A DNA stretch of 51,689 bases. Origin: a virus. Below, one piece after another: positions 2,574 to 49,171 of this stretch (positions are counted from its first letter, which is position 1; the number at the start of each line of letters is the position of its first letter). The notes under the pieces were generated by a model. That model had not been told where the DNA came from. It made no database searches and saw only the letters and a program-made list of their open reading frames with translations. A program made the translations under genes and the position numbers. Location: the IMG/VR virus record IMGVR_UViG_3300045136_000373, positions 1 through 51,689 of that record; one strand, written 5' to 3'.

Positions 2574-3839
2574 ATGTCATCTATTCTATCAAGAATCAGA
2601 GCCACAGATTCGTTACCACAATGGGCCGAAAAGATCAACCTGTCTTTTGATTTTATTGAAAATTATGCACAATCTTCTGGTAATATTGTCAATTCAATAA
2701 CACCAGCAAATACACAATTGATTGTTTGGAATACAACAATTTCTTCATGGTCTAATGCTACACTAATTGGTCCAATTACAATTGATCCGACATCATTTTC
2801 GTCTAACCAATTTTCTTTTAAAATCAACCCACCATTGATTTCTAATCTGAATGAATTATCAGAAAATGATTTAGATAGAGATAATGATTTTTTTATGGTG
2901 TTAGATGCATCTGCATCTGAAATCAAAAAAATCAAGCTTTCGTCACAGGTTGTAACTCCCGGTGGATCAAATACCAATGTTCAGTTCAATGATTCTGGTT
3001 CATTTGGTGGTTCTAGTGGACTAACGTTTGATAAAACAACAAATAATTTGTCAGTTTCAAATAATGTCTTAGTTGGAAATAGAATAGGTGTCAATAACTC
3101 AAATCCAACATATGCTATTGATGTTACTGGAAGTGTCAATACTACAACAGGTTATAGAATCAATGGTACACAGGTTCTTACATCAACAACATTAGGTTCC
3201 ACGGTTACAACTTCATCTTTGACTTCTCTTGGTGTTTTAACTTCACTTTCAGTTTCTGGAACTGCAAATTTCAATAGCTCATTGACAGCAAATGCAGGAA
3301 TTCTAACAACTTCTATTACAATCAATAACTTAGACGGAACAAGTCAACCATTTCTTTATTTAAATACAAGTAAACAAGTTTTGGCCGCTCGTGGTGTTGT
3401 AGATGATGATTATGGTTTATATTTTCATTCATCTTTTGGAATTTATAATCGCGGGGATTTTACTATTTGGTCTCGTTTACAATCAAATAGCTCATATGGT
3501 TTGATTTTTGCAAAACAAGGAAATACTACCAGTAAAACTGGCCAAATTAATGCTCAAACGAAAATTGGTGGTATTTATGGTACTGGATGGGATGAAACTT
3601 CAAACTTTAGAGCAATTGCTGGAATTGAAATCTATTCAAATGGAACAGTTACATCAACTAGCAGTCCCGGATTTATTCTATTTGCTACAACACCAGCAGG
3701 ATCAATAAATATGGTAGAAAGAGTAAGAATTTCTAGTAATGGTTATGTCGGAATCAGAAATACATTAGGCCCAAGTCTTATAGATTCAACAACTTATAGA
3801 TTAGTCATCCCTGTTGGTACTGATAGATATGCAACATAA
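2574..3839 (+). CDS. Tail fibre-like structural protein
   Basis: 421 residues. N-terminal segment (1-60) begins MSSILSRIRATDSLPQWAEK. A middle motif, NTNVQFNDSGSFGGSSGLTF near residue 140, is the linker often seen between domains of phage fibres, and a close copy ([20 protein letters not shown]) occurs in the collagen-like fibre at 47789. The C-terminal half is Ser/Thr/Asn-rich with a GIGxxxP-like beta repeat (VGNRIGVNNSNPTYAIDV). No enzyme signature. Preceded by a late-type promoter and followed with an 11-nt overlap by the GIY-YIG gene. Likely a distal fibre or baseplate spike subunit. Confidence 0.7.
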   Translation: MSSILSRIRATDSLPQWAEKINLSFDFIENYAQSSGNIVNSITPANTQLIVWNTTISSWSNATLIGPITIDPTSFSSNQFSFKINPPLISNLNELSENDLDRDNDFFMVLDASASEIKKIKLSSQVVTPGGSNTNVQFNDSGSFGGSSGLTFDKTTNNLSVSNNVLVGNRIGVNNSNPTYAIDVTGSVNTTTGYRINGTQVLTSTTLGSTVTTSSLTSLGVLTSLSVSGTANFNSSLTANAGILTTSITINNLDGTSQPFLYLNTSKQVLAARGVVDDDYGLYFHSSFGIYNRGDFTIWSRLQSNSSYGLIFAKQGNTTSKTGQINAQTKIGGIYGTGWDETSNFRAIAGIEIYSNGTVTSTSSPGFILFATTPAGSINMVERVRISSNGYVGIRNTLGPSLIDSTTYRLVIPVGTDRYAT

Positions 3840-4305
3840 TATATATGAAAATCCTTGGCTCTTTAATGGAAAACCATTTTTACCTGAAGATATCAAAAAT
3901 TTTTATGGTTTTGTTTACAAAATTACAAATAAATTGACAGGAAAAGCATATATTGGGCGAAAATATTTTTACAAATCTATAAAGAAAAAAGGTAAACGCA
4001 GAATTTATATTGAATCAGATTGGAAAGATTATTATTCATCTTGCGACGAATTGAAACAAGACGTAAATAAATTTGGAAAAGAAAATTTTTTGCGTGAAAT
4101 AATTTCTTTGCATGAAACCAAGGGAGACACAAATTATTGGGAAAATTATGAATTATTCCGAAATAACGTTTTAGAAGCTGTTGATTTTAAAGGAGAAAAA
4201 TTATACTATAATAACAATATCATGAATCGTTATTTCATCAGAAAAAACAAACCAGTAAGATTGCTTTCGGAGACGTATTATGGCATTCAAACCATCAACT
4301 CTTGA
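3829..4305 (+). CDS. GIY-YIG family endonuclease (homing-like)
   Basis: 158 residues from the ATG at 3829; a longer in-frame start at 3814 is possible. The N-terminal motif GFVYKITNKLTGKAYIGRKY contains the two-strand GIY-YIG core with a following Arg/Lys, and EFLRE-like and NYWE elements further on fit the catalytic Glu. Family knowledge: single-domain phage GIY-YIG nucleases of this type often sit as free-standing mobile genes between structural genes. It overlaps the fibre gene by 11 nt and the tail-tube gene by 26 nt, so it is tightly wedged in. It could instead have a DNA-processing role in the phage. Confidence 0.75.
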   Translation: MQHNIYENPWLFNGKPFLPEDIKNFYGFVYKITNKLTGKAYIGRKYFYKSIKKKGKRRIYIESDWKDYYSSCDELKQDVNKFGKENFLREIISLHETKGDTNYWENYELFRNNVLEAVDFKGEKLYYNNNIMNRYFIRKNKPVRLLSETYYGIQTINS

Positions 4306-4804
4306 TTTTTCAGCACAATCTCTTTTCAAAATGGTGTTTACTAGAATTCCTAATGTTGAATACTATACATTTTCTGTAACAATTCCGGGTATTACTTTAG
4401 GTGAGGCTACACAACCAACTCCGACATTAGATATCCGACTTCCCGGAGATAAACTGGTATTTGATCCATTTGTTTTGACTTTTTTGGTGCAAGAAGATCT
4501 TCAGAATTATGTTGAAATTTATAATTGGTTAATTGGTTTAGGCAAACCAGTTTCTACAGATCAACATAAAGCATTTGTCAGAAAAGGATTTCCAGAAAGA
4601 ACTGAAAAGCAAAACAAATATTCAGATGCAAGTCTTTTCGTACTTACAAACAAAAACAACCCCACGATTGAGGTTGTTTTTCGTGATATTTACCCTATTT
4701 CTTTGTCTACAATTACCTTTGATAGTTCAGTTGGAGATTATGCTGTCTTAACAGCAGATGTTACATTTAACTATCTATATTACGAATTTAGGAAGAAATC
4801 TTAG
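4280..4804 (+). CDS. Tail tube-type protein (gp19 superfamily)
   Basis: 174 residues with GGAG 7 nt before the ATG. The pattern FSVTIPGITLGEATQPTPTL, then LPGDKLVFDPFVLTFLVQED and YNWL, is the layout of T4 gp19-like tube proteins: an N-terminal beta sheet, then a D-x-(F/W)-x-LTF-x-V-x-ED strand pair and a helix. It could be the major tube protein or a related baseplate tube initiator. Its last 17 nt overlap the 3' end of the convergent radical SAM gene. Confidence 0.7.
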   Translation: MAFKPSTLDFSAQSLFKMVFTRIPNVEYYTFSVTIPGITLGEATQPTPTLDIRLPGDKLVFDPFVLTFLVQEDLQNYVEIYNWLIGLGKPVSTDQHKAFVRKGFPERTEKQNKYSDASLFVLTNKNNPTIEVVFRDIYPISLSTITFDSSVGDYAVLTADVTFNYLYYEFRKKS

Positions 4805-5972
4805 TTTTGATTTGAACTAAGACATTTTTTTGAGCTTCTTGAATGAAAGCTTGTCTTCCACTAGCCCAAATTTTATACATTTCTTCTTCTAATTTCTTCA
4901 GAAGAATAGACTTAGACAATGGTAATACTCCTTTTTCAAGATAATCTTTTTCAAAATACTCAAACAAATTATAGTACATTTGACACAAATTTGTTTTATT
5001 GCGCCAATCATATTTGATGCCAGTTCCGGGACATTGACCTTTACAAAAAATAAAAAATCTACAATCTTTACAACCGCCATATTCTTTTGGAGTATTGTAA
5101 AGAGCTAATTGTCTTTCATAACCATGTTGTTCGGCTTTGATTTGTTCAAATCCATCTTTATTTGTGCGATTGCAATTTACCCGTTCTCCTTGTCCGTTGA
5201 TGCCGCGAACAGCATCTGTTGAGTAATAATCGCAAGAATGAAACGTACAAGTAACATTCTCATTTCCAATTAAAATGTTTTTGATATCATTGAAAAGATC
5301 AAATTTGATGTATTTTAAAGTTTTCTCAAATTCGGCCATCTCCAACATTACACGAACATTTTCTTCAGGAGTTAGTGAAAATTTATCGTCAATTTCGTCA
5401 TAATCTACTTGAAGTGTATGTAATCTGGCTCCTTGAATTGCTTTTCTTTCATCATAATCTTTAATCCAAGCTTTTAGTTTAGGCAATTTTTCTGGAATAG
5501 CATTTATTTTATGTAACGTAATAATCAAACTGACGCTCACTCCATTTTTTACACATTTTTCAATATTTTCTAGAGTCTTTTTTGTTGCTAATCTGGTTTT
5601 TTCCAAACTTCCAGCCCAACGTGCATCATTCAACTCGTCTGGCCCGTCCATTGAGATTCCAACATGAACTTTGTATTTTTTGAATAATTCAATGTGTTTA
5701 TCAGTAATTAGAACTCCATTACTTTGAATACCATTTTTACCATAAGCCTTATAACCAAAATTCCATAATTTTTCCAAAGTGTCAATATCTACAAGGAGAG
5801 GTTCACCACCAAAAATAGAAAATTCGCCACCTTCTTTTTTCAGACCTTCAATCATTTTATTAACATCATAATCAAAAACACCATGATTTCCTGCATCACG
5901 AACTGGGTGTTCATAACAATAAGTACAAGAAAGATTACAAGTTACTCCAATTGGGGTGACTTCAATGCTCAT
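4788..5972 (-). CDS. Radical SAM/SPASM maturase-like enzyme
   Basis: 394 residues. The [4Fe-4S]-SAM motif is C12-x3-C16-x2-C19 (CNLSCTYCYEH), followed by GGEP at 55-58, the SAM-contact motif. The C-terminus carries a complete SPASM signature: C247-x14-G262-x4-C267, then C301-x2-C304-x5-C310-x3-C314 and C330. Family knowledge: SPASM enzymes of this type (anSME, PqqE, ribosomal-peptide and triceptide maturases) bind two auxiliary clusters and modify peptides or proteins. It is last in a minus-strand cassette behind the H-x-D repeat protein and a methyltransferase fusion, overlapping the upstream gene by 4 nt (ATGA). Inference: it modifies the H-x-D protein. An anaerobic sulfatase-maturase role is less likely because no sulfatase gene is visible. 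Confidence 0.93.
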   Translation of the reverse strand: MSIEVTPIGVTCNLSCTYCYEHPVRDAGNHGVFDYDVNKMIEGLKKEGGEFSIFGGEPLLVDIDTLEKLWNFGYKAYGKNGIQSNGVLITDKHIELFKKYKVHVGISMDGPDELNDARWAGSLEKTRLATKKTLENIEKCVKNGVSVSLIITLHKINAIPEKLPKLKAWIKDYDERKAIQGARLHTLQVDYDEIDDKFSLTPEENVRVMLEMAEFEKTLKYIKFDLFNDIKNILIGNENVTCTFHSCDYYSTDAVRGINGQGERVNCNRTNKDGFEQIKAEQHGYERQLALYNTPKEYGGCKDCRFFIFCKGQCPGTGIKYDWRNKTNLCQMYYNLFEYFEKDYLEKGVLPLSKSILLKKLEEEMYKIWASGRQAFIQEAQKNVLVQIKTKISS

Positions 5973-6601
5973 ACCGGAAACATCTCCTCTCCGCTCTTAT
6001 ATTTTTCTTCTACGAAATTATACCAAGATCTAAAATATTGGCCCGTTTTTGCTTGTTCTGAAAATGTAGCTGCGATATATTGTTCGCTAGAAGTTAACTC
6101 ACGATCAATAAATGGATATTCTTTTGATAAATTGTGCCATCCATTATCACAATAATTTACAATATCTTTGTAATAACAATAACCATCAGCAAAGAAAAAT
6201 ACTTCTCCCTTTTCAATATTTTCATACATTGATAATGGAGGATTTTGCGAAAAAATTGTCGTTGGATGAATATATAGTACAAATTGTTGTCCTTTTTTGA
6301 CAATATATTTTTCAAGTAAATACTTATAATTGTCTGATACTTCATTGACAACACTTTTTACTTCCGTTGGCGTGACAAAATATAATGGGTAATCTCGTTC
6401 ATCTTTTTTTGCCATATTATAAATTTTAAACAATAATTGTTCTGATGAAAATGGATTAATAATATCATTTTCAATACCTACATACATATTAACATCAAAA
6501 TTCCGTTTGAAACGGCTGATATAATGCCAAATCAAAACCGATTTATCTAATGTAAGATCGTTGACAATAGTCAAAATATTCAATGGTTTTCTCGTATTCA
6601 T
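5969..6601 (-). CDS. Unknown protein in the radical SAM cassette
   Basis: 210 residues, starting 5 nt after the methyltransferase fusion and overlapping the radical SAM gene by 4 nt, so almost certainly co-translated with both. The fold looks alpha/beta: an N-terminal hydrophobic strand (NILTIVNDLT), a central strand FVLYIHPTTIF, then FFFADGYCYY. The arrangement faintly recalls GT-A glycosyltransferases, but the Asp-x-Asp metal site is absent (YIHP in its place). I do not recognise the family. Co-occurrence makes it a likely partner in modifying the H-x-D protein. Confidence 0.75.
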   Translation of the reverse strand: MNTRKPLNILTIVNDLTLDKSVLIWHYISRFKRNFDVNMYVGIENDIINPFSSEQLLFKIYNMAKKDERDYPLYFVTPTEVKSVVNEVSDNYKYLLEKYIVKKGQQFVLYIHPTTIFSQNPPLSMYENIEKGEVFFFADGYCYYKDIVNYCDNGWHNLSKEYPFIDRELTSSEQYIAATFSEQAKTGQYFRSWYNFVEEKYKSGEEMFPV

Positions 6602-6605
6602 ATTA

Positions 6606-8060
6606 TTAGACTCCTTGCAGTACTAATAGATTTTCCTTCTTATTTGTTACAATTTTTGTCAAATATCCATAATATGCTACAACATTTATGCCTTCTCGCT
6701 TATCCATCATTGTAAATTTAAATCCAGCTTTATTCAATAATTTTACCATTTTATCACTTTTTAGATCTTGAATTCTATCGGCATAAGCATAAAAAATAAT
6801 ACGTTGATTTTCATTAAACTTTTTCAAAAAATTCAATGCTGTAAATTCATCTACCTCAAAAAACCGACCCGGCATAATGATACTCAAAGATGGTTCTTCA
6901 ACATAGATATTGGTTTCAAATATATTTCTTGTAACATATTCAGCTTGCGGAAAATTGATTTTTCCGTGTTTAGCACGTTCTTCATCAATTTCAATTCCAA
7001 TATATCTACAATTTAATTTTAAAGATTCTTCAATTCTACGAAGCAATTCTCCATTACCACAGCCATAATCTACTATTGTTTTATAATCCATTCTGTTTTC
7101 TTTTACTAACGAAAGAATTACATCATGTGAATGTTTCATAGCTTCAAAAGAAAAAAACCCATTATCATTCCAAAGATTTTCTAATAAAATTGACCTTTTA
7201 AAAGAATTTGATTCAGTAATTGGAATTTTTGCTTTATTTACATATGGAAATTTATTTCCAGATACACCTTCTTTTGGATATGAATATCCTTGCTTTTGTA
7301 CAACAACTAAATCGGCTGTGGCATCTGTTCTAGTAGAAATTTTCAAAATTGGAGTTTTAATTTCTGCAATTCCATGTAAGGCACTCCATTCCACGGGCCA
7401 TGAAAGCATTTCTTCTAACCAATCCATTTCTTCGTTATATCCCAATTCACGCCCAAATTCTATATTATTTCTAGCAATTCTGTAAGTATTTTCACAGGAA
7501 AAACTGCATGGAAGATGACTTACCGCACGAACGCCAAGCCAACGAAGTAAAATATTACATTCCTTTGGACCTTCAGTTCCATTCAGACTCATTGGATATG
7601 TAGTATCTACAAAATTTTCTTTGACCCAATATTTTTCAAAAAATTCAATACAACAAGAAGGATAATCTAATAATTCTCCAATTTTTGTATTATTATTAGT
7701 TTTCCATGCTTCTTTCCAATTATCAACATATTGTGGTTGTGTATATGCTACTCTATACGAATTTTTTTCTTGCAGGAGAAAATTTCCATGTGTTGAGTTT
7801 GAATAACTATTACCAAGATATGTTTCCTCAAGTATTACTAATTCTACATTATTCGGTAATCTTTTTATTTCATATTCTACATTTTCTTTTTTTAAAAACG
7901 TTAAATTAGATTTTTTACGACCAGTAAATACACTTTTTCTTTCTATATCAAGAAAAGCACTAGAAATTCTATTGATTCTGGATTGCCAAACATCTCTTGC
8001 TTCTGCGGATGCCCAAATAATACGAGTCCAATCAGGCAAAACAAAATTCAATCTTTTCAT
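6606..8060 (-). CDS. DUF483-like domain fused to a class I SAM methyltransferase
   Basis: 484 residues. Residues about 125-240 carry DYPSCCIEFFE (Cys136-Cys137) and LPCSFSCENT (Cys185 and Cys189), a Cys pattern I associate with the DUF483 family. The C-terminal part, from about 325, is a class I methyltransferase: motif I VDYGCGNGELL (330-340) and acidic motif II GIEIDEERA (355-363). It sits between the H-x-D protein (15 nt away) and the unknown gene (4 nt away). The Cys set could bind a metal or the repeat substrate. The substrate is inferred to be the H-x-D protein; a cap-like or DNA target cannot be ruled out. Confidence 0.8.
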   Translation of the reverse strand: MKRLNFVLPDWTRIIWASAEARDVWQSRINRISSAFLDIERKSVFTGRKKSNLTFLKKENVEYEIKRLPNNVELVILEETYLGNSYSNSTHGNFLLQEKNSYRVAYTQPQYVDNWKEAWKTNNNTKIGELLDYPSCCIEFFEKYWVKENFVDTTYPMSLNGTEGPKECNILLRWLGVRAVSHLPCSFSCENTYRIARNNIEFGRELGYNEEMDWLEEMLSWPVEWSALHGIAEIKTPILKISTRTDATADLVVVQKQGYSYPKEGVSGNKFPYVNKAKIPITESNSFKRSILLENLWNDNGFFSFEAMKHSHDVILSLVKENRMDYKTIVDYGCGNGELLRRIEESLKLNCRYIGIEIDEERAKHGKINFPQAEYVTRNIFETNIYVEEPSLSIIMPGRFFEVDEFTALNFLKKFNENQRIIFYAYADRIQDLKSDKMVKLLNKAGFKFTMMDKREGINVVAYYGYLTKIVTNKKENLLVLQGV

Positions 8061-8075
8061 ATATTCTCCCTTTTA

Positions 8076-9428
8076 TCAAACATTTTTAACAAAAACTGGC
8101 TGATCATTGTGTAATGTATCGGCGTGATCTGAGTGAATATCTTCATGTGTATCTATATGTTGAATATCATTATGGGTATATTGCCCAGTATCTCCATGAT
8201 CATTATGATCAGAATGTGCAACATCAGAATACCAATCAAGATGATCCGTATGATTTGAATATGAATCACTGTGATCTATATGATCATAATGAATATTACA
8301 ACCATCAGTATGATCTGAGTGTGGTACATCATTATATATTGGCATATCGCAATGATCAGAATGATCTGAATGATAATTAACATCAGTATGTGTGGTGCAA
8401 CCATCAGTATGATCTGAGTGTGGTACATCATTATATATTGGCATATCGCAATGATCAGAATGATCTGAATGATAATTAACATCAGTATGTGTGGTGCAAC
8501 CATCAGTATGATCTACATATGGATTGTCCGAATGATCTGAATAGTCTGAATGCATATCACAATAATCTTCATGATAAGCACTTCCATCAATATGAATATA
8601 AGAATCATTATGCCAACCGGGATCTCCTACAAATGTTACATCAAAATGCATTAAACATTCATCTGCATGATCATTATGTGAATCTATATAATCATTATGA
8701 ATTGGCATATCGCAATGATCTTGATGAGAAATAATATCATTATAATCTGAATGTACAGTACAACCATCTGTATGATTTATTAGTTGAACATCATCATGAA
8801 TTGGCATATCGCAATGATCTTGATGGGAAATAATATCATTATAATCTGAATGTACAGTACAACCATCTGTATGATTTATTAGTTGAACATCATTATGAAT
8901 TGGCATATCGCAATGATCAGAATGCTGAGTTGTAGTATTATCGTAATGTGTATCAGAATGTGGATTTGATACATCTCCATGACTATCTTCATGAAGCATG
9001 TCACTATGCGGATTTGTATAATCAATATGTGGATAAATTCCATCACTGTGATCAGAATGAAGAACATCAGAATGAGAATCTGTATGTGTTGGCGCGTCGG
9101 TATGATCTTGATGAGCAGTATCTATATGATATTGAACTTTTTGATTGTTAGGAGTAATCCCTTTTAATGAAGTTCCTTCAACCCACAATGAACCAATACT
9201 ATTTGAATTTCCTACTCCAGTAGCATTTACTGTAAATGGAATTACTCTATGTACATTTGTTTCTGAAATATAATTCAAATATCCATCAGATGTCATCCAA
9301 ATACTACCGGAAGTTGCACTTGGAACTGAAGCGACAAAATTTCCTTGATAACGGTAAACCTCTGTTGAGGTCGGACAATAACAGAGAAATTCTCCTTCAA
9401 CCCAAATGCTTCCCGGTAGTGCTGGCAT
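8076..9428 (-). CDS. His-x-Asp repeat protein with virion-like N-terminus, probable modification substrate
   Basis: 450 residues in two parts. Residues 1-100 hold three copies of a beta motif starting GSIW or GSLW (near 6, 41 and 79), like a fibre or head-decoration domain. Residues about 101-444 are H-x-D triplets every 3-8 residues (HSD, HTD, HCD, HND), with about one residue in three being His or Asp. A 33-residue unit is repeated, each copy bearing HCD and DGC, so Cys is regular too. No signal peptide. It has its own late-type promoter and precedes the methyltransferase fusion, the unknown protein and the radical SAM enzyme. It could be a modified structural protein or a metal-binding protein. 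The reading frame is secure: the opposite-strand frames over this region are shorter and fragmentary. Confidence 0.9.
   Translation of the reverse strand: MPALPGSIWVEGEFLCYCPTSTEVYRYQGNFVASVPSATSGSIWMTSDGYLNYISETNVHRVIPFTVNATGVGNSNSIGSLWVEGTSLKGITPNNQKVQYHIDTAHQDHTDAPTHTDSHSDVLHSDHSDGIYPHIDYTNPHSDMLHEDSHGDVSNPHSDTHYDNTTTQHSDHCDMPIHNDVQLINHTDGCTVHSDYNDIISHQDHCDMPIHDDVQLINHTDGCTVHSDYNDIISHQDHCDMPIHNDYIDSHNDHADECLMHFDVTFVGDPGWHNDSYIHIDGSAYHEDYCDMHSDYSDHSDNPYVDHTDGCTTHTDVNYHSDHSDHCDMPIYNDVPHSDHTDGCTTHTDVNYHSDHSDHCDMPIYNDVPHSDHTDGCNIHYDHIDHSDSYSNHTDHLDWYSDVAHSDHNDHGDTGQYTHNDIQHIDTHEDIHSDHADTLHNDQPVFVKNV
8301..8498 (-). repeat. Two tandem 99-bp repeats in the H-x-D gene
   Basis: Copies at 8301-8399 and 8400-8498, essentially identical, with the first bases of a third copy beginning at 8499 before it diverges. 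Each encodes a 33-residue unit starting HCDMPIYNDVPHSDHTDGCT. The near-identity indicates recent duplication or ongoing homogenisation by recombination. Confidence 0.9.
8704..8901 (-). repeat. Second pair of 99-bp repeats in the H-x-D gene
   Basis: Copies start at 8704 and 8803, with a third partial copy at 8902. They encode the sister unit HCDMPIHNDVQLINHTDGCT plus 13 residues. The period is again exactly 99 bp, so both repeat blocks share one ancestral 33-residue module. Confidence 0.9.
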
Positions 9429-9440
9429 ATGCTATGTTCC

Positions 9441-9448
9441 TATTTATC
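9441..9448 (-). promoter_or_regulatory. T4-like late promoter, GATAAATA, for the H-x-D cassette
   Basis: On the minus strand GATAAATA lies 12 nt before the ATG of the H-x-D gene and overlaps the stop of the gene upstream. Seven of eight bases match the T4 late element. It implies that the H-x-D protein, and probably the three genes after it, are made late with virion proteins even though they follow the early replication block. An AGGA just after it may be the ribosome binding site. Confidence 0.6.
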
Positions 9449-10621: not shown

Positions 10622-11561
10622 TTTTGAACACACAATTGGCCATAATTTCAGTGATCATAGCCGATAAATGAATTTCTGGATCAGCAACAAACGGAAGCTG
10701 GTATTGATATTGAGCTAAAATCAAAATCAAAGCTGGACGCGAACTTGGTTCCAGATGATCCTCAAAATGGTCAAAAATTTGACGAATAATATCTTGAGGA
10801 TTGGAATTGAGATTCGCCACCACCCATTTCCGCATTTCTGAAAAATTCTTTTCTTTGACAATTTTCAATAATTCCCGAATATTGCTTTCAGAGAAATATG
10901 TTAAAATACCAACATCAATTTTTCCGTTGGTTTTTGCATATTTCTCCAATTCTGACAAACACTTACGAAAATCAGGATAATTTTTAGCAACAACCGATGC
11001 AACAACATTTTCATCATATTCAACTTTTTCTTCTTTGAGAATCGTCATTGCTCGTTTACCAAAAGCTAGCATGAGATCAATTTTTTCGGCTTTTGGAAAC
11101 GAAAATTCAAATACCGACAGACGGCTAAGCAGAGGTTCAATGATTTTTTGTTTATAATTTCCAGTCAGAATGAAGCGGCAATTTTTACTATATTCTTCCA
11201 TAAATGACCGCATTGCTGGCTGGAATGATTGTGGATTGAGATAATCTGCCTCATCAATAATCAGACACTTTAATGGATTTTTATTGAATGATACCGTTGT
11301 GGCAAAGTTTTTTACTTTGCCACGAAATGTATCAATGCCTGATTCATCACTACCATTGATGATCATGTAGTCCAGATCTAATTCATTACAAAGAGCTTTT
11401 GCTACTGTAGTTTTTCCTGTTCCCGGCCTCCCAATAAAAAGCATATTTGGGAAACTGCCTTCTTTCACATAATTCAAGAAGGCATTTTTTAGAGTTTTTG
11501 GAAGAATACATTCTTTAACTTTCTTTGGTCTATATTTCTCAACCCAAATATCACTCCTCAT
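10614..11561 (-). CDS. 44: Clamp loader ATPase large subunit gp44
   Basis: 315 residues, close to T4 gp44 (319). AAA+ motifs in order: WVEKYRPKK box II, Walker A GRPGTGKTT, Walker B CLIIDEADY, sensor 1 ILTGN and the SRL arginine-finger region. The start at 11561 is chosen because AAGGAG lies 6 nt upstream, inside the gp45 gene; a longer in-frame ATG at 11579 lacks this. Overlaps gp45 by 11 nt. Loads the sliding clamp on primer-template DNA using ATP. Confidence 0.95.
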   Translation of the reverse strand: MRSDIWVEKYRPKKVKECILPKTLKNAFLNYVKEGSFPNMLFIGRPGTGKTTVAKALCNELDLDYMIINGSDESGIDTFRGKVKNFATTVSFNKNPLKCLIIDEADYLNPQSFQPAMRSFMEEYSKNCRFILTGNYKQKIIEPLLSRLSVFEFSFPKAEKIDLMLAFGKRAMTILKEEKVEYDENVVASVVAKNYPDFRKCLSELEKYAKTNGKIDVGILTYFSESNIRELLKIVKEKNFSEMRKWVVANLNSNPQDIIRQIFDHFEDHLEPSSRPALILILAQYQYQLPFVADPEIHLSAMITEIMANCVFKNA

Positions 11562-12225
11562 TGAATTCTCCTTGAACATAATATTTCAATCCCAAAGAAT
11601 CATTATGAAATAAACCAATACCACGCGAATCAATATAGACTTCGTAAGACTCGCTAATAAACTTGAATTTCTCAATGTTGAAAACAAATTTGGAATTTGG
11701 TTTAATTTCTCCAGAAAAAACAACTGAGAGCGAATCAGATGTTTTATTGTTTTGATCCTTCACCGAAATTTTCACTTCTTCATCATTTTCTTCAATAATA
11801 ATGTTTTCACAACCTAAAATTGCTGCTGCTTTTTGTAGTCGGATTAATTCATTTTTTGGTAGCTGAAATGAAGCTGCAATGTCATTTAGAACAACACTTT
11901 TCTTTGGATAATTGATCAATTGTGGTGAACAATAGAAAAACTCAATCTGTTTATTTCCCCCAGTAATTACCAAACTTTTTTCAAAGAATTCAATGGAAGG
12001 ATTTTCTTCGGGAGAATCCAGAAGAAGATAAGCACTCAAAAATTTTTTCAAATCATATAACGCAAAATCAATAGGAAACTGAATCGGACTATTTGCTTCA
12101 GCAATAATAGTCTTATCATCAGAAATTGTTGAAATTACAGAAGAATTTGCTTTGATGTAAATGCTGTTGTTGATTGTAGAAAAATTAGAGAGAATTTTGA
12201 TACAATTTTGTGTTAATTGTGTCAT
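11551..12225 (-). CDS. 45: Sliding clamp gp45
   Basis: 224 residues, matching T4 gp45 in length (228) and order upstream of gp44-gp62-regA. N-terminal LTQNCIKILSNFSTINNSIY and DLKKFLSAYLLLD, then a C-terminal ESYEVYIDSRGIGLFHN, fit the gp45 fold. Family knowledge: the trimeric clamp tethers gp43 polymerase and in T4 also activates late transcription with gp33 and gp55. A sigma70-type promoter lies directly upstream (12247-12275), giving the clamp-loader-RegA unit its own early start. Confidence 0.93.
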   Translation of the reverse strand: MTQLTQNCIKILSNFSTINNSIYIKANSSVISTISDDKTIIAEANSPIQFPIDFALYDLKKFLSAYLLLDSPEENPSIEFFEKSLVITGGNKQIEFFYCSPQLINYPKKSVVLNDIAASFQLPKNELIRLQKAAAILGCENIIIEENDEEVKISVKDQNNKTSDSLSVVFSGEIKPNSKFVFNIEKFKFISESYEVYIDSRGIGLFHNDSLGLKYYVQGEFNEE

Positions 12226-20354: not shown

Positions 20355-21722
<1,368 letters not shown>

Positions 21723-43916: not shown

Positions 43917-45074
43917 ATGCCGAAATACAGATTTCATGTCCTTGGTCTTCCACATACTGTAACAACAAATAAAAAAGGAACTCCTTGGGTTGCTTGTGCT
44001 TATACACAAAAAGTTGTCAAATTATGTAAAATGTTGAAATTGGCTGGACATACAGTTTTCCATTATGGTCATGAAAAATCTAATCCAATGTGTGATGAAC
44101 ATATTACAGTCATTACAGACAGAGATTTTGAGTTAGCATATGGTGATTATGATGTCAGGAAGAATTTCTTCAAATTTGATATGGGAGATCATGCATATCA
44201 AACATTTTACAACAACACAATTCGTGAAATAAGCAAAAGAAAACAAAAGCTTGATTTTCTATTGTGTATGTGGGGTTGGGGACATAAACCTGTTGCTGAT
44301 GCGCATTCCGATCTGATTGTTGTAGAACCCGGAATTGGATATGGTTCTGGTCATTTTGCACGTTGGCGGGTGTATGAATCTTATGCGATTCGCGCAGCTG
44401 TCAACGGAGCACAATCTGTTATGCAATCTGGTCTGGAAGATTGGTATCATGTTGTAATTCCAAATTATTTTGAACCTGAAGATTTTGATTTTTCAGAAAA
44501 AAGAGATGACTATTTTCTCTTTCTTGGTAGAGTATATCCGGGAAAAGGAATTGATATTGCTTACCAAGTTTGTAACACTTTAGGAGAAAAATTGGTTATT
44601 GCTGGTCAGGGTTCTTTGAAAGAATCTGGTTATGAAGAAACTGATAAAATCAAACATATTGGTTTTGCTGATTACGAAAAGCGGCGAGAATTGATGTCAA
44701 AAGCAAAAGGATTTTTCCTGCCTTCTATGTATTGTGAACCCTTTGGTGGAGCGGCAGTAGAAGCTATGTTTTCAGGATGTCCAATTATCACCACAGATTG
44801 GGGAGTCTGGCCGGAGAATAACTTACATGGAATCACGGGTTTCCGTTGCCGGACATTTGACCATTTTGTTTGGGCAGCAAAAAATATTGACAAAATTAGT
44901 CCAAAGAGAGTTAGGCAGTGGGCCATTGACAATTTCTCGTGCGAACGAATTATTAAAATGTATGAAGAATATTGGCAGATGGTTATGGATGTTTATACTG
45001 GAAAGGGGTGGTATCAACAACATCCAGAACGAAAATCTCTAAATTGGTTATATAGGAAATACCCAAATGGTTAG
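43917..45074 (+). CDS. Glycosyltransferase, GT4-like
   Basis: 385 residues. GT-B layout: N-terminal [20 protein letters not shown], then [52 protein letters not shown] and the nucleotide-sugar site [20 protein letters not shown] (E-x7-E). Transfers sugar from a nucleotide donor. It starts a run of sugar and modification genes just before the fibre, so virion fibre glycosylation or host surface change are both possible. Confidence 0.88.
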
Positions 45075-47788: not shown

Positions 47789-49171
47789 ATGCCAACAAAT
47801 CCAGAATTTTTTGCAAATGTTGATCCAGAAAATAATGAAATAGATTTGAATTTAGATATTAATGCTAACCAATTTACTATTAAAAACTTACGAAATCCAA
47901 TTGATCCGAGAGACGCTGCCACTAAAGAATATGTAGATCTTTATGGTGGGGGAGGAGTTGGTGCGTCTGGATTTGTGGGAGCAACAGGTGCAACTGGCCC
48001 GCAAGGAGCAACTGGTTTTACTGGTGCAACTGGATTTCAAGGAGCAACTGGAGAACCGGGACCACAAGGCGCAACAGGAATTCAAGGTCAAATGGGTTTA
48101 CCCGGCCCGCAAGGATTTCAAGGTGCTACCGGATTTCAAGGAGCAACAGGACTGCAAGGAGCAACTGGATTTCAGGGTGCCACAGGATTTACTGGTGCCA
48201 CTGGTGCTACTGGAGTACAAGGATTTCAAGGTGCTACGGGTCTGACAGGTGCAACTGGATTGCAAGGCCTACAGGGCGCAACTGGCTTGCAGGGAGCAAC
48301 TGGTCTAACTGGTGCCACAGGCTCAGGCGCAACAGGTGCAACCGGATTGCAAGGACCGCAAGGCGCAACTGGATTGACTGGTGCCACAGGTTTGCAGGGG
48401 GCAACTGGGTTTCAGGGAGCAACTGGGCCTCCCGGAACAGCAAATCCCGGAGGATTAAATACACAAGTTCAATTTAATCAAAATGGATCGCTAGGAGGAT
48501 CTTCTAATTTTGTTTATGATTATACAAATAACAGAGTTGGAATTGGTATATCTTCTCCACAGAATATTCTTGATGTTTTATCTACATCTTCTCAGAATAT
48601 AGCAATGACAGTAAATTCAGCAACAACAACAGATAGAGCTGGATTGTTACTGAGACATTATGGAACAAATGGCGGTTCAACTCCAAACAATTCAAGAGTT
48701 GGAGTAATTAGTTTTATGGCAATGCCTACAACAGGATCAACGAATTTTGCTTCTGCGGCAATTGATTCATATATTGAAACTAATGGAACATCAAATGCTC
48801 CCGGAGATCTAAGATTTTATACAAATACAGGATCAGGTGTAACAGAAAAACTAAGAATCACAGCAAATGGCCAAATCCTTTCCCGTGAAGGGATGTTTGC
48901 ATATGAATATACGACAGTTTCTTCAAATACAACATTAGTTTCAAATAGAGCGTATTTGGTTACAGCAAATAATTTGACATTGACTCTTCCAGCATCTCCA
49001 AGCAATTTAGATACAATTTGTATTATTGGTACAGGAATTACAGGAACGGTAATAAATAGAAATGGAAATAATATTATGGGTTTAGCTGAAAATATGACTA
49101 TTGATATTTCAAATTTTTTCCTCAAATTAACATATTTTAGTTCAGGAACAAATTGGAGGATTACACCATGA
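47789..49171 (+). CDS. Collagen-like tail fibre
   Basis: 460 residues. An N-terminal cap ([30 protein letters not shown]) leads into Gly-x-y repeats from about 58 to 222 (GATGATG, GFQGATG). The connector [20 protein letters not shown] is shared with the fibre at 2574, and a C-terminal domain ends [18 protein letters not shown]. The start AATKEYVD is frequent in T4-like short fibres. Two glycosyltransferases precede it and two Gly-rich tips follow. The 25-kb-distant fibre at 20355 has the same type of shaft. Confidence 0.9.

Follow-up and report, generated by a model that had tools for sequence, protein, structure and literature searches.

Radical SAM crosslinking is familiar from small peptides. 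Known triceptide precursors are short peptides rather than proteins of 200–1,500 aa, and a short leader–core precursor peptide is a defining feature of the class. Triceptides follow an aromatic-x-Asn/Asp motif linked from residue i to i+2, and Tyr–Asp crosslinks and crosslinks of His are known (PMC11002830); the documented rings are Trp, Phe, Tyr and His, with Asn, Asp, Arg, Ser and Ala as partners (PMC11002830, PMC9062424). Triceptide enzymes (XncB, OscB, YhhB, YxdB and HaaB) are radical SAM/SPASM proteins found beside an aromatic-x-Asn/Asp substrate, an arrangement like that of the phage locus described here; a His or Tyr ring and an Asp partner are both possible, and the available text does not list a His–Asp pair (PMC11002830). 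In the TvgA/TvgB system, as in the one proposed here, one radical SAM enzyme modifies a regular repeat several times, but the motif is TVGG, the product is a poly-cyclopropylglycine with the cyclopropane within Val, and the substrate is a bacterial peptide (PMC9062424). Among phages, Campylobacter phages CP220 and CPt10 carry 11–12 radical SAM genes (PMC2853527). A radical SAM module of the Thermus phages Cumys and phiMa, for which a possible role in DNA modification has been suggested (Viruses 2024; PMC11437467), likewise combines a radical SAM protein, a DUF483 protein and an unknown protein, which we equate with the adjacent array protein. The accessible portion of that paper makes no mention of an H-x-D array, a peptide substrate or an H-x-D tail on the enzyme (PMC11437467), and a literature search with thin coverage of subscription journals returned no title or opening of an abstract describing H-x-D arrays in phages.

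The window, that is, the whole stretch of DNA analysed, is one entire IMG/VR virus record of 51,689 bases (34% G+C), perhaps a genome fragment. The virus looks T4-like: it encodes a phage DNA polymerase, a helicase, an ssDNA-binding protein and a clamp-loader subunit whose nearest relatives (about 51%) are in Prochlorococcus, Methylophilales and Pelagibacter phages. A protein dense in H-x-D triplets is followed downstream on its own strand by a DUF483–methyltransferase fusion, a 210-aa protein and a radical SAM/SPASM enzyme (Table 1). We consider it very probable that the array is the substrate of this enzyme, and we favour, with fair confidence, the fuller reading that three-residue cyclophanes are formed along a tail-type protein. 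The residue rule of the arrays equals the triceptide motif. The locus differs from triceptide systems in that the predicted substrate, a phage protein of tail type, is large and contains tens of motifs, and in that an enzyme scoring under the family cut-offs is accompanied by a DUF483 partner, often with a methyltransferase.

Table 1. Features of the array locus in the window (positions of the whole stretch).
Feature	Coordinates	Strand	Basis
H-x-D array protein, 450 aa, predicted substrate and predicted tail-associated protein	8076..9428	-	homologues in phiMa, Cumys and phiLo
N-terminal beta domain, residues 1–100, three G-S-[I/L]-W repeats	9129..9428	-	AlphaFold2, alignment
Array, residues 101–442, 61 H-x-D plus Y-x-D units	8103..9128	-	sequence
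99-bp tandem block, 2.3 copies, 97% matches	8691..8918	-	repeat search
99-bp tandem block, 2.2 copies, 100% matches	8299..8514	-	repeat search
C-terminal cap H-N-D-Q-P and tail	8076..8111	-	alignment of 16 proteins
DUF483 domain fused to methyltransferase domain	6606..8060	-	Pfam, family alignment, model
210-aa protein, restricted to the window's lineage	5969..6601	-	sequence comparison
Radical SAM/SPASM enzyme, 394 aa, predicted array crosslinker	4788..5972	-	Pfam PF04055, 2.6e-16
Tail fibre protein ending PVGTDRYAT, context only	2574..3839	+	phrog_9942, 4.3e-10

All 61 histidines of the window array sit in H-x-D, compared with a mean of 12.5 and a maximum of 24 such triplets in 10,000 shuffles, and the triplets are spaced 3–12 residues apart. 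An initial sequence-only reading had described a 33-residue module duplicated as 99-bp DNA units with one HCD and one DGC each, and had proposed that such copies vary in number between isolates. The two blocks were recovered by repeat search, HCD recurring at residues 172, 205, 238, 326 and 359 and DGC at residues 188, 221, 309, 342 and 375, and an assembly artefact is unlikely because a separate contig, L004, carries the same units. In L005, the next relative, whose array is incomplete, the exact tandem units are not visible. Similarly, Cys recurs every 16–17 residues inside the window blocks but is not a feature of the family, amounting to 0.3% of residues across 56 arrays, with one each in the Cumys and phiMa array proteins and none in that of phiLo (phiLo_137). 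As far as the sequences go, the 99-bp period and the regular Cys spacing are lineage-specific details, and a Cys-based thioether chemistry was dropped because Cys is not conserved among the arrays. The expected copy-number variation did not appear in L004, the nearest contig, which has equal length and unit count without an indel.

The N-terminal domain is of a G-S-x-W type common to many arrays, and AlphaFold2 models it as a mostly confident beta structure (pLDDT 64–96 per ten-residue block); apart from these 100 residues, only a short strand at the C-terminus is modelled with more than low confidence. The array part was modelled without secondary structure (pLDDT 33–46), which lends no support to the beta-solenoid suggested earlier, though this is weak evidence because unmodified repeats may be disordered. 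Such an unstructured model would fit a chain that needs modification. At the other end of the protein, H-x-D-x-P in the cap is invariant in 16 of 16 aligned proteins, and D-x-P occurs within the last 14 residues of 37 of the 56 arrays.

The constant of the family, judged at the level of residues, is a dense array of aromatic-x-Asp/Asn triplets. Residues were counted in 56 non-redundant arrays (11,184 residues), including two that are not clean, namely L121_7493, which is the tail of another radical SAM protein, and the truncated L001_18639. For His, 1912 of 1963 have Asp or Asn at +2 (97%), a value inflated by the choice of arrays by H-x-[D/N] density, which leaves Phe, Tyr and Trp unaffected, so that only the values for these three residues are free of selection. 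They are 82/204 (40%) after Phe (shuffle mean 16.9, maximum 30), 129/385 (34%) after Tyr (mean 33.4, maximum 51) and 21/75 (28%) after Trp (mean 7.0, maximum 17), compared with 498/8445 (6%) after non-aromatic residues; the shuffles randomised everything except the H and D/N of H motifs. Repeats inside one array are not independent, and F-x-[D/N] is present in 32 of the 46 arrays having any Phe. H-x-N is the majority unit in three arrays (L131, L133 and L134), and the L098 array consists almost throughout of F-x-N. The latter matches Pentapeptide_3 (57 bits, cut-off 27), and five residues is the commonest distance between motifs (764 of 2,088), as would be expected if the array were a pentapeptide-like solenoid with its aromatics stacked inside and no crosslink. 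Yet the motifs are mostly 3, 4 or 5 residues apart, and distances of three (337) and four (531), which a strict five-residue coil disallows, are frequent, the Pfam search of the window array protein gave no pentapeptide match, and AlphaFold2 produced no coil, making a solenoid of this kind very unlikely.

Diverse phages inherit the array and the radical SAM enzyme together. In a tblastn search of 50,697 phage records, the array protein, a close enzyme and DUF483 occurred together in phiLo, phiMa and Cumys, three Thermus phages whose recorded host is T. thermophilus HB8. Cumys has the gene order tail collar fibre, short gene, array, enzyme and DUF483, and phiLo carries three consecutive H-x-D-rich ORFs at a distance of a few kb, encoded by the other strand. 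His falls within H-x-D at 54/54 positions in Cumys_13, 53/53 in phiMa_29 and 72/78 in phiLo_137. An enzyme-first scan, with an alignment of the enzyme against one genome per species and IMG/VR, gave L008 (Chengkuizengella) as the sole close relative among the best 80 genome matches listed. Loci were counted as strong if the enzyme match reached 100 bits; among the matches listed there were 71, of which 59 have an array, a set that still includes contig pairs sharing DNA (for example, L104/L260, L090/L091, L093/L094, L100/L101, L131/L132 and L141/L142). Without the six loci found via the array, 53 of 65 enzyme-first loci among the matches listed have one; ten of the 12 arrayless loci lie at contig edges, another has the F-x-N array of L098, and L107 has no array on its 8-kb contig. 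An array was absent from all 90 loci with weaker, more distant radical SAM matches among those listed.

Conversely, an array-first scan used a DNA pattern for H-x-D-x-H-x-D-x-H-x-D-x-H, which gave at least 120 stretches and, among the matches listed, 14 loci with an ORF of at least 12 H-x-D carrying the pattern. The enzyme lies on the same contig in 11 of 11 loci judged genuine, or 11 of 14 without that judgement, among the matches listed; the other three (L186, L275 and L286) were called low-complexity shadow frames by eye after the absence of the enzyme from them had been seen. Six of the 11 genuine loci were new relative to the enzyme-first set. The end of the array and the start of the enzyme are at most a few tens of bases apart in the majority of loci, and in the lineage of the window they are separated by DUF483 and other genes. 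DUF483 was matched in 62 of the 71 strong loci among the matches listed. The range of the system covers T4-like, Thermus and other tailed phages, plus a haloarchaeal plasmid with baseplate genes, that of the archaeon Halomicrococcus, on which the enzyme (34%) and a DUF483-like gene are accompanied by an array and a baseplate gene. Related radical SAM and DUF483-like genes occur without any array on a plasmid of Halorussus (L291), and therefore the enzyme family may have other substrates.

Eleven Cys are invariant in 51 of 51 enzyme members, namely C12, C16 and C19 of the CxxxCxxC motif and C242, C247, C267, C301, C304, C310, C314 and C330 of the SPASM region. Each of the 51 gives a match at E 1e-5 to the models for the peptide crosslinkers YhhB, AmcB and DynA, and each also matches sulfatase maturase models. 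Every NCBIfam match shown for the window enzyme is under its curated cut-off. The best is the anaerobic sulfatase maturase model TIGR03942 (85.7 bits, cut-off 349.45), against 73.1 for DynA, while the scores against the 3-CyFE family cut-offs are 56.3 of 445 for YhhB, 62.3 of 425 for AmcB and 48.4 of 310 for GrrM/OscB. Anaerobic sulfatase maturases are likewise the top PDB match (4k36, 2.2e-13), so that these enzymes provide the best single match in both collections, far under the cut-off in NCBIfam. The array substrates are mostly 200–1,500 aa long, and that of the window has a folded N-terminal domain, unlike a short precursor. The locus would work like a triceptide system, but because of these scores and the size of the precursor we do not file it as one. 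The final 80 residues contain at least two H-x-D in 48 of 67 enzyme members and in 0 of 89 control radical SAM proteins; this tail, absent from the enzyme of the window and its lineage, may be a tethered substrate or guide.

The suggestion of the initial reading that the array is the enzyme's target is thus strongly supported, by co-inheritance in diverse phages together with the motif in the tails of most enzymes. Another of its suggestions was metal binding. An unmodified metal-binding or charged spacer, beside an enzyme serving another substrate, would accord with His and Asp being good ligands and with the H-x-D spacing, which should suit chelation. But F-x-N and H-x-N arrays exist, F-x-D and Y-x-D units stand at H-x-D positions, co-inheritance with the enzyme is near-complete, and the enzyme's own tail carries H-x-D; chelation is unlikely as the common purpose, metal binding does not predict Phe-x-Asn, and we hold this explanation to be highly improbable. 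Hardly any weight falls on the possibility that the enzyme and DUF483 make a DNA modification, with the array a neighbour lacking any functional link. That reading follows the published suggestion, which includes deazapurine-cluster neighbours in cyanobacteria (PMC11437467), but arrays are missing at the 90 other radical SAM loci and found in nearly all of the enzyme family, bacterial and archaeal, the substrate motif lies within the enzyme tail, and the matched models include many peptide-modifying enzymes.

The DUF483 domain of the window scores 26.8 bits against PF04467 (Pfam gathering cut-off 25), 40 of 47 relatives match the family at E 0.01, and the family alignment has conserved Cys at positions 136, 137, 185 and 189. 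The AlphaFold2 model is confident (pLDDT 91). DUF483 had no sequence match in the PDB, the model had no Foldseek match at E 0.001, and a second structure comparison gave nothing above Z 6.7 (2guk_A, 102 residues, rmsd 3.8). Methyltransf_25 was matched by 33 of the 47 members, and this frequent fusion is one argument for a different chemistry, in which the enzyme would modify the array by another His/Asp reaction (methylation, epimerisation or decarboxylation) and the methyltransferase would add methyls. SPASM enzymes catalyse many reactions, which also counts in its favour. However, a chemistry confined to one residue leaves unexplained why Asp/Asn stands at exactly +2 after His, Phe, Tyr and Trp only, and we regard such a reaction as unlikely, though the most credible of the alternatives to crosslinking. 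The 210-aa gene occurs, besides the window, only in L004, L005, L092–L094 and L100–L101, and its Pfam matches are all sub-threshold, one of them to a DNA glucosyltransferase.

The array protein is probably located in the tail. Of the proteins near or carrying arrays, 4 of 10 in one set and 6 of 10 in a second matched PHROGs of the tail category (loci L116, L121, L131, L126, L125, L143, L265, L292 and L002), with fibre, spike, host-specificity, tape-measure and baseplate families represented; the remaining proteins in both sets had no match or a non-tail match. The array lies within a long protein (about 720–1,480 aa) in L104, L105, L108–L112, L140 and L147, and in L105 it is C-terminal in a long protein with a laminin-G domain. 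In L114 and L143, a PVGTD stretch like the end of the window tail fibre is fused ahead of the G-S-x-W domain.

Comparison of the window with L004 revealed 36 differences in 7,054 bp, of which 32 fall in the 1,053-bp array (8076–9128), a change of 3.0%, whereas each of the neighbouring genes in these 7 kb differs by less than 0.2%. The array is thus a hypervariable hot spot. For about 20 of the 32 differences, the variant is found in other units of the array in the window, which points to change largely by exchange between the array's own units. A diversity-generating retroelement was considered and rejected, as the changes are not limited to A and gene conversion fits the matches to sister units better. 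Nonsynonymous changes between the window and L004 affect 1 of 122 H/D codons of H-x-D and 19 of 228 remaining array codons, and between Cumys and phiMa 1 of 108 and 13 of 140, respectively; both H/D-codon changes are His to Tyr, which preserves aromatic-x-D/N. The triplet skeleton is therefore held, and it is the middle and linker residues that change.

The data show the operon itself, its co-inheritance, the residue rule, H and D conserved amid variable neighbours, and a setting among tail genes. The mechanism we infer, from the action of the enzyme on the array to the type of bond, the position in the virion and the role, would be a phage-encoded post-translational modification system acting on a tail-fibre-type array protein, which the small beta domain probably docks to the tail. 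The radical SAM/SPASM enzyme would form a bond between the beta carbon of the Asp/Asn at i+2 and the ring of the aromatic residue at i, which is His or in some triplets Tyr, Phe or Trp, resulting in tens of three-residue cyclophanes per chain, and DUF483, the near-constant and often methyltransferase-fused partner, may act in substrate handling or in a second modification. The resulting filament would be stiff and would resist proteases and heat, and its free middle and linker residues would evolve fast, as expected for a receptor-facing surface. We put at about even the chance that a poly-cyclophane is part of the virion, one radical SAM enzyme stapling every aromatic-x-Asp/Asn triplet of the fibre array, and propose a receptor or stiffening role only tentatively. 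If the crosslinking reading is true, His–Asp would be a new cyclophane pairing, the array protein would be the first viral structural protein crosslinked by cyclophane chemistry, with a single enzyme making dozens of crosslinks in each chain, and the published, unassigned radical SAM module would be explained. It would also provide a rigid filament with variable residues that are free to change as host range requires, and a programmable route to stapled protein filaments. Phages hardening and diversifying tail proteins in this way would represent a new principle of virion construction. The reading lends itself to immediate testing, since T. thermophilus HB8 is the recorded host of phiMa, Cumys and phiLo.

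Several further observations concern the surroundings of these genes. Locus L121 encodes a second radical SAM protein (7493–9448, 652 aa) whose tail contains many H-G-D-H-T-D motifs, and a second array (10834–12129) lies beside it. In the window, a gene for a SegE-type GIY-YIG endonuclease (3814–4305, + strand) overlaps the end of the tail-fibre ORF and the start of a tail-tube ORF (4280), and a phage glycosyltransferase at 43917–45074 (+ strand) matches phrog_3408 strongly (1.5e-144). Two collagen-like proteins, at 20355–21722 (- strand) and 47789–49171 (+ strand), have up to 93 and up to 40 consecutive G-x-x triplets, respectively, and the second also resembles a tail fibre.
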